From the NCBI RefSeq assembly GCF_000826525.2, contig NZ_LN651327.1, positions 62,001 through 126,000 on the forward strand: 64,000 nt of DNA. The letters are read 5' to 3'. This document shows positions 3,349-48,025 of this stretch, piece by piece; within the stretch, counting starts at the first letter, position 1; each line of letters opens with the position of its first letter. Both the position numbers and the translations under genes were made by a program. This DNA is from Mobilicoccus massiliensis (GTDB lineage Bacteria; Actinomycetota; Actinomycetes; Actinomycetales; Dermatophilaceae). Below the pieces are notes generated by a model. It made no database searches. It was not told the origin of the DNA and worked only from the letters and a program-made list of their open reading frames with translations.

Positions 3349-3512
3349 ACGGAAGTCCTCGTCATGGCAGGCGTCGTGGAAGACCTCGTGGCAACACGGC
3401 GGGGGTGATGACCCCGGACTCGCTGCCATCCCATCTGCCGTCTCGGGTCGGGCGGCCTGACGACGAGAAGTCGAGAGGGGAGGTGAAGGAGGGGGGAGCG
3501 TGGGCAAGGTGT

Positions 3513-9517: not shown

Positions 9518-11050
9518 GTGAGACTCGCCGACGTCGTCGCCACCTCCGCGCGTGTCGGCGCGACCAGATCGCGGACGGCCAAGATCGCCGCCGTCGCCGA
9601 GGCGTTGCGCGAGGCCGGGTCCGACGCTGCGCGGATCGTCGCGTTCTACCTCTCCGGGGCGTTGCCGCAGCGCCGGACCGGCGTGGGCTGGCGAGGGCTC
9701 GCGTCGCTGCCCGCACCGGCGGAGCAGCCGACGCTAACGGTCGCCGAGGTCGACGCCGCTCTCGAGGACATCTCTGCGCTCGCCGGGACCGGCTCGGCGG
9801 GGCGGCGTCGTGAAGCCGTGAACGACCTGTTCGCCCGCGCGACCGCCGACGAGCAGGCGTTCCTGCGGGGGCTGCTCACCGGCGAGGTTCGCCAGGGCGC
9901 ACTCGACGGGGTGTTGCAGGCGGCGATCGCCGAGGCCGCCGCTGTTCCCGCTGCCGCCGTGCGGCGCGCGGTCATGCTCGCCGGGTGGTCGGCCGATGTC
10001 GCTGCTGCGGCCCTGGCGCACGGTGAGGCGGGCCTCGCCGAGATCGGCCTCGTCGTCGGAAGACCCCTGCGGCCCATGCTCGCCGGATCGGCACCTGACG
10101 TCGCGGCGGCGCTCGCCACGGTGGGCGGAGGAGAGCCGGTGGCGGTCGAGCGCAAACTCGACGGCATCCGGTTGCAGGCGCACAAGGACGGCGACGACGT
10201 GCGCCTGTTCACCCGCTCGCTCGACGAGATCACCGAACGGCTGCCCGAGGTCGTCGAACTCGTGCGCTCGCTGCCGGCCGAGCGGCTCGTCCTCGACGCC
10301 GAGGCGATCGCGTTGCGACTCGACGGGCGCCCACACCCGTTCCAGGTCACCGGCGCTCGCACCGCGAGCCGGGCCGATCCCGCCGCTCTCGCCGAGCGGA
10401 CCCCGGTGACGACGTACGCCTTCGACCTCCTGCACGTCGACGGGGAGGATCTTCTCGACCTGCCCGCTCGCGAGCGCTTCGCCCGTCTGGCCGACGTCGC
10501 ACCCGAGTCCCGCGTGCCCCGGCTCGTCACCGCCGAGGAGGACGAGGCGGCCGCGTTCTTCGCCGATCAGATCGCCGCCGGGCACGAAGGGGTCGTGGTC
10601 AAGAGCCTCGATGCGCCCTACGCCGCCGGCCGGCGGGGAGCGGGCTGGGTCAAGGTGAAACCGCGACACACCCTCGACCTCGTCGTGCTCGCCGTCGAAT
10701 GGGGCAGCGGTCGCCGGCGTGGAAAGCTCTCGAACATCCACCTCGGGGCGCGGGATGCCGCCTCGCCCACGGGGTTCACCATGCTCGGCAAGACGTTCAA
10801 GGGCATGACCGACGAGATCCTCGAGTGGCAGACCCGCCGGTTCCTCGACCTCGAGACCCATCGCGAGGGACACGTCGTGTTCGTGCGACCCGAACAGGTC
10901 GTCGAGATCGCGTTCGACGGATTGCAGACGTCGACCCGCTACCCCGGCGGCCTGGCCCTGCGGTTCGCGCGGGTGCTGCGCTACCGCGACGACAAGGGCG
11001 CGGCCGAGGCCGACACGATCGAGACCGTCCGCGCCCTCGCGGCGACCTGA
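9518..11050 (+). CDS. ligB: ATP-dependent DNA ligase (LigB type)
   Basis: 510 residues, equal to mycobacterial LigB (about 507). An N-terminal helical DNA-binding domain (1-190) is followed by the adenylation domain with nucleophile Lys213 in ERKLDGIR, then [33 protein letters not shown] and GWVKVKP (motifs III-V). The OB-fold domain ends with [19 protein letters not shown]. It seals nicks using ATP and accompanies the essential NAD-dependent ligase as a repair enzyme. The GTG at 9518 was chosen; everything further upstream in frame is the antisense of the flavin oxidoreductase. It is transcribed away from that gene. Confidence 0.93.
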
Positions 11051-11067
11051 GCCGCCCCTGCCACGAA

Positions 11068-11185
11068 CGACGTCGGCCCGCACTCACGCTGCTCCGAAGG
11101 CCCGCGCAACAACGAATGGTCGTCACCGACGTCGGCCCGCACTCACGCTGCCCGAAAGACTCGCGCAACAAGGACCGGTCAGTCC
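11068..11185. repeat. Imperfect 59-bp tandem duplication
   Basis: CGACGTCGGCCCGCACTCAC plus four more bases is repeated exactly at 11068-11091 and 11127-11150. The remaining 35 bases of each unit are related but diverged and both contain CGCGCAACAA, the core of the inverted-repeat arm of the adjoining element. The unit therefore seems to be a partial duplication of that element's left side. Confidence 0.7.
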
Positions 11186-11277
11186 GACGGCCGATTTCGC
11201 CGGCAGCCCCCTGACCAGCGGTGATGCCGGTGGCGGCCGATGAGAGGTCGTCGGTGACCGGTCTTTGTTGCGCGAGT
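11159..11277. repeat. Inverted-repeat element, copy 1 (119 bp)
   Basis: Two 23-base arms, 11159-11181 and 11255-11277, are reverse complements at 22 of 23 positions (core CGCGCAACAAAGACCGGT). They flank a 73-base centre. The same arms recur at 25170-25290. The centre of copy 1 read backwards shares GCTGGTCAG-N-GGG-N-TGC with the centre of copy 2. It lies between convergent ligB and the TipAL gene. It may be a repeated intergenic palindrome (REP-like) or a bidirectional terminator. Confidence 0.75.
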
Positions 11278-11288
11278 TCTGCGTTGCC

Positions 11289-12104
11289 TCACTGCCAGAC
11301 GGCGGTCTCGGGGTCGACTCCCTGGGCACTCGCGTTCTGAGCGATCGCGTCGTGCAGCCACTGCGTGAGACCGGGCTGCACCGCCTCGTAGCGGTCGGTG
11401 AACCGCTGGTCGGCGAGGTACATCCGGGCCAGGCACACCTGCATCGAGTACGAGCAGTCGTAGAACCGGTCGATCGACGCGCGATGGCGCTCGGCGAGGG
11501 CGTTCGCCGTGTCGGAACCGGGGGCGACGCCGTCGCGGACGGCCGCGGCCATGTCGGCGTCGAGCGCGTCGCTCTCGGCCTTGACCCGTTCCCAGTCCTC
11601 ACGTGACATCTGCTTCGAGCGGGCCTGCGACTGCGCCCACTGCTCGGTGTCGCCCCAGCGTTCCTCGGCCTCGACCTGGTACTCGGGGTTCCACTCCTGA
11701 CCGAAGATCTCGCTCATCTCGGCCGGGGTGAGGTTCGTGTCGTTCATCTCTGCCTCCATCAACACATCCACTGCGGAGACCATCTCCTGCAGGCGAGAGA
11801 TGCGGCCTTCGAGCAGTTCCCGCTGGCGACGCAGGTGGGCGACCTGATCGACCGTGGGGTCGTCGAGGAGTTCGCCGATCTGCGCGAGCGGGATCCCCAC
11901 CTCCCGGTAGACGAGCACCCGATGGATCCGCGCGACGTCGTCGCGCGAGTACACCCGGTAGTCGGAGTTCGTACGCCCGCTCGGGTGCACGAGGCCGATC
12001 TCGTCCCAGTGGTGGAGGGTCCGCACGCTCACCCCGACCAACGCCGCCGTGGCGCCGACCGTCAGCTCGTCGTGCGGTGTGCTCACCGTTGCAGCATCTC
12101 TCAC
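11289..12104 (-). CDS. tipA: TipAL-type MerR-family transcriptional activator
   Basis: About 271 residues. An N-terminal MerR helix-turn-helix (VGATAALVGVSVRTLHHWDE), a dimerising coiled coil (about 85-120), then a TipAS antibiotic-binding domain (about 125-271). The domain has the paired Cys of DCSYSMQVC (Cys217 and Cys224), with the 7-residue spacing of the Cys that trap thiopeptides in Streptomyces TipA. It probably activates its own promoter when it binds a drug. Its promoter (12112-12142) has the TipA-type palindrome in a 19-bp spacer. The -10 is 7 bases before the GTG at 12104, suggesting a leaderless start; GTG 12086 (265 residues) is the alternative. No drug pump adjoins it. Confidence 0.88.
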   Translation of the reverse strand: MRDAATVSTPHDELTVGATAALVGVSVRTLHHWDEIGLVHPSGRTNSDYRVYSRDDVARIHRVLVYREVGIPLAQIGELLDDPTVDQVAHLRRQRELLEGRISRLQEMVSAVDVLMEAEMNDTNLTPAEMSEIFGQEWNPEYQVEAEERWGDTEQWAQSQARSKQMSREDWERVKAESDALDADMAAAVRDGVAPGSDTANALAERHRASIDRFYDCSYSMQVCLARMYLADQRFTDRYEAVQPGLTQWLHDAIAQNASAQGVDPETAVWQ

Positions 12105-23868: not shown

Positions 23869-25269
23869 ATGGCATCCGACCGGGAGTTCGACCTCGTCCT
23901 CGTAGGAGCGACCGGCTTCGTGGGCCGGCTCACCGCCGCGCACCTGGCCCGCAACGCCGGAGAGGCCCGCATCGCGCTCGCCGGCCGCAACCGGGGCCGG
24001 CTCGAGAAGACCCGGGCCCATCTGCCCGCCGGCGCCCGCGGCTGGACGCTCATCGAGACCGATGTCACCGACGCCGAGCAGGCCGCCGCGCTCGCCGCTC
24101 GCACCACCGCGGTGTGCTCGACCGTGGGCCCGTACGAGGAGTACGGCAAGCGCCTCGTCGCCGCCTGCGCCAAGTACGGCACGCACTACTGCGACCTCTC
24201 CGGTGAGGTGTCGTTCGTCAAGTGGTCGATCGAGGCGAACGAGTCGTCCGCGGCTCGCAGCGGTGCCCGCATCGTCCACTCGTGCGGATTCGATTCCATC
24301 CCTTCCGATCTCGGCGTGTTCGAGACGGCTCGCGCCGCGCGCGACGGCGGCGACGGCACGCTCACCGACACCGTCACCCACGTGCGATCCATGCGGGGAG
24401 GCCTGAGCGGCGGCACGTTCGCGTCGATGTTCGGGCAGTTCGAGCGTGCCGACGAGGACCCCGGCCAGGCGCGTCTGTTCGGTGACCCCTACGCGCTGCT
24501 GTCCGCCCGGGAGGCCGCTCGGGCCGGCGACTCCGAGCCGCGCCGAGCGGGCACGTCTGAAGGGAACGGGGAGACCTTCGGCGTCACGCGCGATCGGGCC
24601 ACCGACCGGTGGGAGGCGCCGTTCTTCATGTCGACCTACAACCGGCAGGTCGTGTGGTGGAGCAACGCGCGCAGCGGCTGGTCCTACGGCCCCGGATTCC
24701 GGTACGCGGAGGTGATGGACACCGGCCGCGGCGTCGCGGGCGCGGCACGGGCGGCCGCGGTCTCGCTGGTCACCGGAGCCGCGTTCCGGGGCATGCGGAT
24801 TCCCGCCGTGCGAGACGTGTTCCGCCGGCTCATGCCCGCGGCCGGGGAGGGGCCGAGCCAGAAATCCATGGACGAGGGGCGGTTCGCCGTCGACGTCGAC
24901 GCCGTGACGACCTCCGGCGCGCGGTACCGCACCCGCATCGCCGACCAGCGCGACCCGGGCTACACCGGCACCGCGGTGATGCTCGGCGAGAGCGCCCTCG
25001 CCCTCGCGCTCGACGACCTCGGCTCGGTCACGACATCGGGCGGGGTCTACAGCCCGGCCGTCGGCCTCGGTGAGTTGCTCGTGAGGCGGCTGCGCGACCA
25101 CGGGTTCCGCATCGAGTCGGGGCGCCTCCACGGGGCTGTGGTCGGGGTCGGTCTGGAAGGGCTCGGCAGGATTCGCGCAACAAAGACCGGTGATTGGTGG
25201 CCCCGCGGCCCCGGTGTTCGGCGTCGGTGCTGGTCAGAGGGTTGCAGCGTGACCAGGTCCCGTCGCTGA
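23869..25269 (+). CDS. Saccharopine dehydrogenase-like NAD(P)-binding protein (trans-acting enoyl reductase type)
   Basis: 466 residues. A Rossmann N-terminus (VLVGATGFVGRLTAAHLAR) with LAGRNRGRLEK, then YGKRLVAACAKYGTHYCDLSGE, SCGFDSIPSDLGV and VTHVRSMRGGLSGGT, matches the saccharopine-dehydrogenase-like family typified by mycobacterial Rv2449c. Those proteins work in lipid or polyketide reduction; the substrate is unknown here. The conserved part ends near LLVRRLRDHGFRIESG. The last 32 residues (from about 435) and the stop codon come from the inverted-repeat element at 25170-25290, so the original C-terminus has probably been replaced. GAAGGAG lies just before the ATG. Confidence 0.85.
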   Translation: MASDREFDLVLVGATGFVGRLTAAHLARNAGEARIALAGRNRGRLEKTRAHLPAGARGWTLIETDVTDAEQAAALAARTTAVCSTVGPYEEYGKRLVAACAKYGTHYCDLSGEVSFVKWSIEANESSAARSGARIVHSCGFDSIPSDLGVFETARAARDGGDGTLTDTVTHVRSMRGGLSGGTFASMFGQFERADEDPGQARLFGDPYALLSAREAARAGDSEPRRAGTSEGNGETFGVTRDRATDRWEAPFFMSTYNRQVVWWSNARSGWSYGPGFRYAEVMDTGRGVAGAARAAAVSLVTGAAFRGMRIPAVRDVFRRLMPAAGEGPSQKSMDEGRFAVDVDAVTTSGARYRTRIADQRDPGYTGTAVMLGESALALALDDLGSVTTSGGVYSPAVGLGELLVRRLRDHGFRIESGRLHGAVVGVGLEGLGRIRATKTGDWWPRGPGVRRRCWSEGCSVTRSRR

Positions 25270-25290
25270 CCGGTCTTTGTTGCGCGAGAT
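25170..25290. repeat. Inverted-repeat element, copy 2 (121 bp)
   Basis: Arms 25170-25193 and 25267-25290 share CGCGCAACAAAGACCGGT as perfect reverse complements with partial matching beyond. They flank a 73-base centre containing GCTGGTCAG. It is the same element as at 11159-11277. The left side runs inside the reading frame of the saccharopine-like gene and the right arm ends 9 bases from the stop of ogt, again between convergent genes. Confidence 0.75.
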
Positions 25291-47652: not shown

Positions 47653-48025
47653 GCACTTCCCCTTTCGTGGGTGCTGACCGGGCAGAGTCGTGCCCGACCA
47701 GCGGTGATGCCTGGGTGCACGATCAGGCTAACGTGGCGCGACCCGCGCGCGTGAGGGGTTCGGCGATCATCCACGGCTGCTCTCGGGCCGGTGCGCGTTC
47801 CGGTCTCGACGCGTGATCGTGACGGGGTGCGAACGGCGCCGGAAACGACGGCTGTCTCGGCGTCAGGGGTCCGGGACGGGTAGTCCGTGGGGTTCGTGTC
47901 GGGCCTGCTCACAGGGGTTGTCGGTGGCGGCACCTACGCTCGGTGGTGACGAGAGCGACGGCGAGTCTGCACGAGCCGGCGCACGGGTTCGAAGACGACA
48001 TATCGGACGCACGCGAGGAGGCTGC
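47653..48025. other. Divergent promoter region of arcABC and recCBD
   Basis: 373 bases between two operons transcribed away from each other. GAGGAGG just before recC is its ribosome site. I see a possible TAGCCT -10 for arcA on the minus strand (47728-47723) but no convincing -35, ARG box or FNR site. No coding pattern is supported. Confidence 0.5.

Follow-up and report, generated by a model that had tools for sequence, protein, structure and literature searches.

The two inverted-repeat elements in the window (the whole 64,000-nucleotide stretch analysed here) belong to a family of 40 copies that is dispersed over the genome under study (G000, 3.84 Mb) and also brackets a gene for an AbiEi/Vsr-like nuclease. 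The elements share one fixed geometry, and the same arrangement, with other arms, is found around related nucleases in many actinobacterial genomes. We consider it likely, with a probability of roughly two in three, that the window copies are genome-wide short interspersed elements that act as DNA partners to a single nuclease gene on the chromosome, similar to REPIN/RAYT systems but with an unrelated enzyme. Together, elements and nuclease probably represent a small mobile DNA of a new kind.

The two copies reported in the initial annotation are real, although its limits included about three additional palindromic bases on each side. Their features are:

11162..11274, + (oriented via its centre): element copy 1, 113 bp, with a 73-bp region between 20-bp arms
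11162..11181, +: left arm of copy 1, one mismatch to the consensus (AAGGACC)
11204..11227, +: centre of copy 1, CAGCCCCCTGACCAGCGGTGATGC, with the motif on the + strand at 11212
11255..11274, -: right arm of copy 1, inverted
11103..11120, +: partial arm near copy 1, 3 mismatches, inside a 59-bp tandem duplication; a probable relic
25174..25286, - (opposite orientation via its centre): element copy 2, 113 bp, with a 73-bp region between 20-bp arms
25174..25193, +: left arm of copy 2, ending in GGTGA
25221..25244, -: centre of copy 2, with TGACC at 25236-25232 on the - strand
25267..25286, -: right arm of copy 2, inverted; bases 25267-25269, the first three of this arm, read TGA and form the stop codon of the upstream ORF 23869-25269

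As had been described, in both copies the arms face each other over a 73-base centre, and the shared centre motif has opposite orientations (+ at 11212, - at 25236). The arms, given as the same, are nearly identical, but the left arm of copy 1 carries its one mismatch (AAGGACC) and copy 2 reads GGTGA. The 18-mer arm core has five matches in the window (at most 3 mismatches), compared with 0.07 expected. The placement claimed for both copies, between the ends of converging genes, holds for copy 1, which is flanked by the converging ligD (ending at 11050) and a MerR/TipAS gene (ending at 11289), whereas copy 2, whose neighbours are a saccharopine-dehydrogenase-like gene and one for a methylguanine methyltransferase, extends into the 3' end of the ORF upstream of it. 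This saccharopine-dehydrogenase-like ORF (23869-25269) runs into copy 2, and part of its run-on C-terminus of about 50 residues is encoded by the element. In 14 orthologs the protein ends about 50 residues sooner, and no arms are present in the 200 bases after their stops, so that copy 2 and the run-on tail are later additions. The tandem duplication adjoining copy 1 (window 11060-11180) includes a decayed arm piece.

The prediction that more copies would exist was borne out by a genome-wide search (at most 3 mismatches of 19), which gave 40 forward and 40 reverse arms in G000, compared with 0 matches for a reversed-control arm. Each arm listed in G000 has its partner at 112-114 bp, the total length of the elements, and none is unpaired. 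The distinct elements number 39, one of the 40 copies being an exact inverted duplicate on contig C3; there (G000:C3:1620 and C3:24097, L032 and L033) element and flanks are identical, inverted and 22 kb apart, the result of either a duplication or an assembly artefact. The arm is 20 bp long and inverted (CGCGCAASAAAGACCGGTCA), and the centre is asymmetric, reading TGACCWGS with TGACCWGSRNNGATGC as its best spelling. Oriented by the centre, an element consists of the left arm CGCGCAASAAAGACCGGTCA, a TGACC whose first letter is base 51 or 52, and the right arm in inverted form. The T, G, A, second C and the G following W are invariant in the 39 elements, with A or T at the W position in 39 of 39, and as these elements were collected via their arms and not their centre, the G000 consensus is free of search-pattern bias.

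Between these conserved parts the spacers have fixed lengths and sequences that are unrelated among the G000 copies, with an identity of 33-34%, at most slightly above the 30-31% for shuffled sequence, and no pair that stands out. The element interiors gave no covariation signal, no excess RNA folding (mean z -0.06) and no Rfam match. Changes in the arms affected a single arm in 26 cases, versus five that were matched in both, and being mostly uncompensated they show the arms behaving as double-strand protein sites. The fixed geometry, drifting spacers and uncompensated arms indicate three double-strand protein contact sites at a fixed helical spacing, and not an RNA hairpin.

The conservation in relatives that the initial annotation called for is found in the architecture, with arm sequences that differ from genome to genome. 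Apart from one place in G001, none of 57 relatives has exact G000 arms, and the four hits to paired G000 arms across GTDB R220 were unrelated and at chance level. The site in G001 has a decayed right arm and lies inside a 7-kb tract (G000:C20:143274-150207 versus G001:C90:92252-99180) that is 92.6% identical, compared with about 72-90% elsewhere between the species. The tract is an apparent recent gene transfer, and the G001 element within it looks like a copy that was transferred and then abandoned. The spacer of the element common to both genomes drifts at about the surrounding rate, and for this reason a guide-RNA-like reading of the spacers was dropped.

A de novo search of G001 brought to light elements that follow this design but carry different arms. 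Across 98 genomes, the centre motif is in strong excess over a reversed control in G000, G002, G003, G009, G059, G069 and G080, with a weaker excess in G001; the centre consensus derived from the relatives is biased by the search pattern. The inverted-arm families around these centres differ by genome, with several per genome; G003 has CGACACGAATGACGACAGATC plus three more, G002 has GAAGAACAACACGGACGACATCGA, G069 has three, and arms resembling GACGAAGTTGGCTTACATACTC occur in G009, whereas the G059 centres that were inspected showed no arms. Of two G069 elements that share their arms, one is longer by 10 bp, or one helical turn, to one side of the centre. Beside the same AIM24-family gene, G000 and G001 have elements with different arms, and a general position-conserved switching of arms between the two genomes was not retained as there are too few cases (this clear one and one near miss). 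In G003, an element of another arm family (L203, G003:C225:17996-18114) lies directly after ligD, as does copy 1 here.

A comparison across genomes of the genes adjoining elements gave one recurrent neighbour, an AbiEi/Vsr-like protein. The initial annotation had suggested looking for a linked transposase; there is indeed a linked enzyme, but it is an AbiEi-fold/Vsr-like nuclease and not a classical transposase. With the G000 protein as query, one or two strong homologs per genome were retrieved in six genomes. The G000 gene itself (G000:C21:586589-587572) is single and has a family element at both ends, and the G002 gene has an element on either side. The bracketing arms are those of a dispersed family of the same genome in G000, G002, G003, G069 (two genes) and for one G009 gene; in G001 and G080 the elements at the nuclease genes carry other arms. 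Elements occur just upstream of many nuclease genes and also at their 3' ends.

A profile search detected DUF559/MTES_1575 relatives with AbiEi-like heads in 93 of 98 actinobacterial genomes, and 20 of the 30 loci it returned have a strong inverted-arm element at a gene end, compared with a background of 6-7.5% of random gene-sized windows, drawn from two genomes. Among held-out high-scoring genes, 12 of 17 have a flanking element (four on both sides). The low-scoring DUF559 genes, meant as a negative control, behaved alike (10 of 20, seven on both sides; Fisher p = 0.18), so a linkage specific to the high-scoring subfamily is unsupported and the claim was widened beyond it. In total, 42 of 67 nuclease genes have an inverted-arm element (binomial p ~1e-30 for this pool, which mixes discovery and held-out sets; p ~1e-10 for the held-out genes alone), and for about a third of the nuclease genes no element was detected.

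The strongest single confirmation of the linkage is a second G000 nuclease gene, DUF559/AbiEi-like and one of the low-scoring genes taken as controls (C16:88390-89286), which is bracketed by a different palindrome family, B (CGCCGAGACAGCCGCCGTTTCCGG), seen as dispersed in G000 before its nuclease partner was found:

L344 (G000:C16:87790-89886) and G000:C20:107935, 217098 and 260527: palindrome family B, CGCCGAGACAGCCGYCGTTTCCGG, with a variable middle

A single family B arm is present in the window at 47842-47859. A third palindrome family of shorter span, AGATGGGATGGCAGC...GGGGTGATCACCCC, was observed on G000:C20 at about 81078, 94405, 155908, 175561 and 258756, and one arm resembling it lies at window position 3426. 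The similarity of the arms tracks that of the proteins weakly (Mantel rho 0.16, p = 0.07), and the two closest protein pairs also have the closest arms, which is only suggestive of coevolution between arm and protein.

The AlphaFold model of the G000 nuclease has a mean pLDDT of 89.5. In this predicted structure the N-terminal part resembles the AbiEi antitoxin 6y8q (E 5.5e-4) and Rv2827c, and the C-terminal part resembles the catalytic domain of the homing endonuclease I-Bth0305I (3r3p, TM 0.77-0.79). Among 28 members of the family, Pfam assigns MTES_1575 to 26, DUF559 to 24 and AbiEi_4 to 11, and the PADLOC AbiEi model recognises 25. The G000 protein alone scores below the Pfam MTES_1575 cut-off (17.9 versus 38.2 bits), and its assignment thus rests on family and fold. 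E212, D243 and H261 are invariant in all 28 diverse members and E254 is nearly so, a conservation that implies selection for catalysis. Vsr enzymes have sites of the CTWGG/CCWGG type, and the match of the invariant CCWG in the element centre to such sites is suggestive only.

The plasmid collection has no match to the G000 nuclease, and the phage collection has one, on an 8.6-kb faecal contig that is unannotated and lacks flanking elements. No viral-contig relative was confirmed and no paired arms were found in viral contigs. A phage or plasmid origin was rejected on account of these arm-free viral contigs, the missing plasmid match and the lone match in the phage collection. Single-copy chromosomal nucleases that are nearly absent from phage and plasmid collections would, by analogy, fit a domesticated RAYT-like enzyme.

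We propose that the nuclease binds the 20-bp arms through its AbiEi-like part. Pairs of 23-bp inverted repeats are bound by AbiEi proteins, with bending of the promoter DNA in the case of AbiEi (PMC7319586), which would make inverted arms of 20-24 bp a natural ligand. The arms lie about nine helical turns apart, and two subunits may bend the DNA at the phased spacers and bring the Vsr/homing-endonuclease-like catalytic domain onto the asymmetric centre TGACCWGS. Since nothing but the three contact sites would matter, the spacers would be free to drift. Recognition of the upstream element by the nuclease could autoregulate its gene, and the nuclease may spread or maintain solo elements at intergenic sites in trans, as has been proposed for REPINs and RAYTs (PMC3116915). 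The chances seem evenly balanced for the broader proposal that AbiEi-Vsr fusion nucleases (DUF559/MTES_1575), widespread in actinobacteria and each with its own private inverted-arm family, mobilise or maintain these elements through arm binding and centre nicking, in a new, transposition-like process whose parts have no homologues among known transposons and REP systems. No precise empty site is seen in any pair of strains, and near-identical arms with unrelated spacers are odd for a recently copied element, making a host function that conserves the arms possible.

The likeness to REPIN/RAYT systems (PMC3116915) is considerable, comprising an inverted pair of conserved ends of about 20 bp with a variable middle, an intergenic and dispersed distribution, and the presence of several families in one genome, each located next to a single-copy enzyme gene of its own. 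The flanking of the cognate enzyme gene by elements, a criterion for REPIN/RAYT systems, is also found here, with a different enzyme. However, the Y1 transposase (RAYT, PF01797) was detected in none of the seven genomes searched, with control genomes detected as expected, and its lack rules out membership. The enzyme here is an AbiEi-fold/Vsr-like nuclease, the centre is conserved and asymmetric, the arm mutations are not hairpin-compensated, and the G000 arm, read directly (CGCGCAACAAAGACCGGTCA), has no GTAG or CGTC tag. The AbiE type IV toxin-antitoxin operators (AbiEi/Rv2827c; PMC7319586) share with the present system the AbiEi-like DNA-binding fold and a long inverted-repeat pair upstream of the own gene (about 20-24 bp here, 23 bp there). 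In contrast, the repeats here are tens of base pairs apart instead of 3 or 13 bp, they are also found downstream and dispersed, and the protein carries a nuclease domain. The EDxHD/Vsr-like homing endonuclease I-Bth0305I has the same predicted catalytic fold (3r3p), but the present system lacks an intron, intein or split target, its gene is placed between whole elements, and the protein is an AbiEi-like fusion. MITEs, ERIC and Correia elements are likewise short intergenic inverted-repeat elements in tens of copies, whereas the elements described here have unrelated interiors, no IS partner, and a linked nuclease of another class.

The initial annotation had offered a REP/MITE-like element or a recurrent bidirectional terminator; the former, as a dispersed element, was broadly right, but the terminator is unsupported. 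The arms could make a stem of 20-24 bp and several copies are near gene 3' ends, but a recurrent bidirectional intrinsic terminator or RNA hairpin element is extremely unlikely given the gene context, the 26 uncompensated versus 5 matched arm changes, the 73-nt loop without fold signal and the absence of an Rfam match, on which grounds it was rejected. Only nine of the 40 copies lie between convergent genes, with nine between divergent and 21 between co-directional genes and one unclassified at a contig end (as assigned with a simple codon-based gene caller), which contradicts convergent placement as a rule; with 12 of the 49 adjacent gene pairs in the window convergent, such placement is ordinary and shows no enrichment. 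An ordinary MITE family, derived by internal deletion from a classical transposon that has these ends, would account for the inverted ends, uniform size and intergenic dispersal. It is disfavoured, and in our view very unlikely, because no transposase gene lies between or beside the arms, no arm in G000 is unpaired, the interiors are not copies of each other and the same centre is combined with many different arms. The direct repeats flanking elements do not make a convincing target-site duplication; those of 6 bp number six, versus 1.4 expected, and probably stem from a palindromic AGATCT flank. Two IS256-type copies near elements have other ends, which rules out a MITE of IS256; near-identical IS256-type insertion sequences (Transposase_mut) were observed at L044:628-2075 and L057, one of them inserted near an element.

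The main rival, which we regard as unlikely, is that nothing moves, and that the AbiEi-like nuclease acts as a repressor or as a nucleoid protein with about 40 fixed, looped operator sites that benefit the host, the arms being under selection and changing with the specificity of the protein. Arms that are kept while spacers are randomised, the fixed and helically phased spacing, the autoregulatory AbiEi precedents (PMC7319586), the element just upstream of many nuclease genes and the different-arm G001 element at the same AIM24-family gene all agree with such operators. However, the sites are not promoter-specific, they occur at nuclease-gene 3' ends too, congeners have almost no G000-type arms, copy 2 interrupted the 3' end of a gene that is free of it in relatives, and the catalytic residues are invariant. 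Those residues belong to a fold that matches the homing endonuclease I-Bth0305I and the nuclease gene sits between elements, as would be expected if the nuclease cut the element and the gene unit were copied into the cut sites, with solo elements as targets or footprints. We find homing distinctly improbable, since the gene lies between two whole elements, none of them split, and G000 has one such gene versus 40 elements, so that the gene has not spread into its targets.

The preferred reading, interspersed elements partnered with a nuclease, is by function a variant of the interspersed-element-plus-enzyme kind and by its parts has no known relative. In open-licence papers on DUF559, MTES_1575, AbiEi inverted repeats and REPIN/RAYT we found no description of the element-nuclease linkage, nor a role for DUF559/MTES_1575 nucleases with AbiEi-like heads. 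The linkage ties each nuclease gene to private DNA sites, which provides an immediately testable substrate, and accounts for scattered palindromes that otherwise resemble terminators. If the elements do move, this would be a partnership of the REPIN kind that evolved around another enzyme, and it would offer naturally occurring DNA readers of paired long sites together with their targets of 20-24 bp.

A centre-like motif, ACCTGACCWGCGANGAYG, was also observed without arms and directly adjoining tRNA genes in G001 (L136, G001:C4:215198; L154, G001:C42:113982), and further copies adjoin terminator-like hairpins (L142, L145); the element centre may have a wider role.
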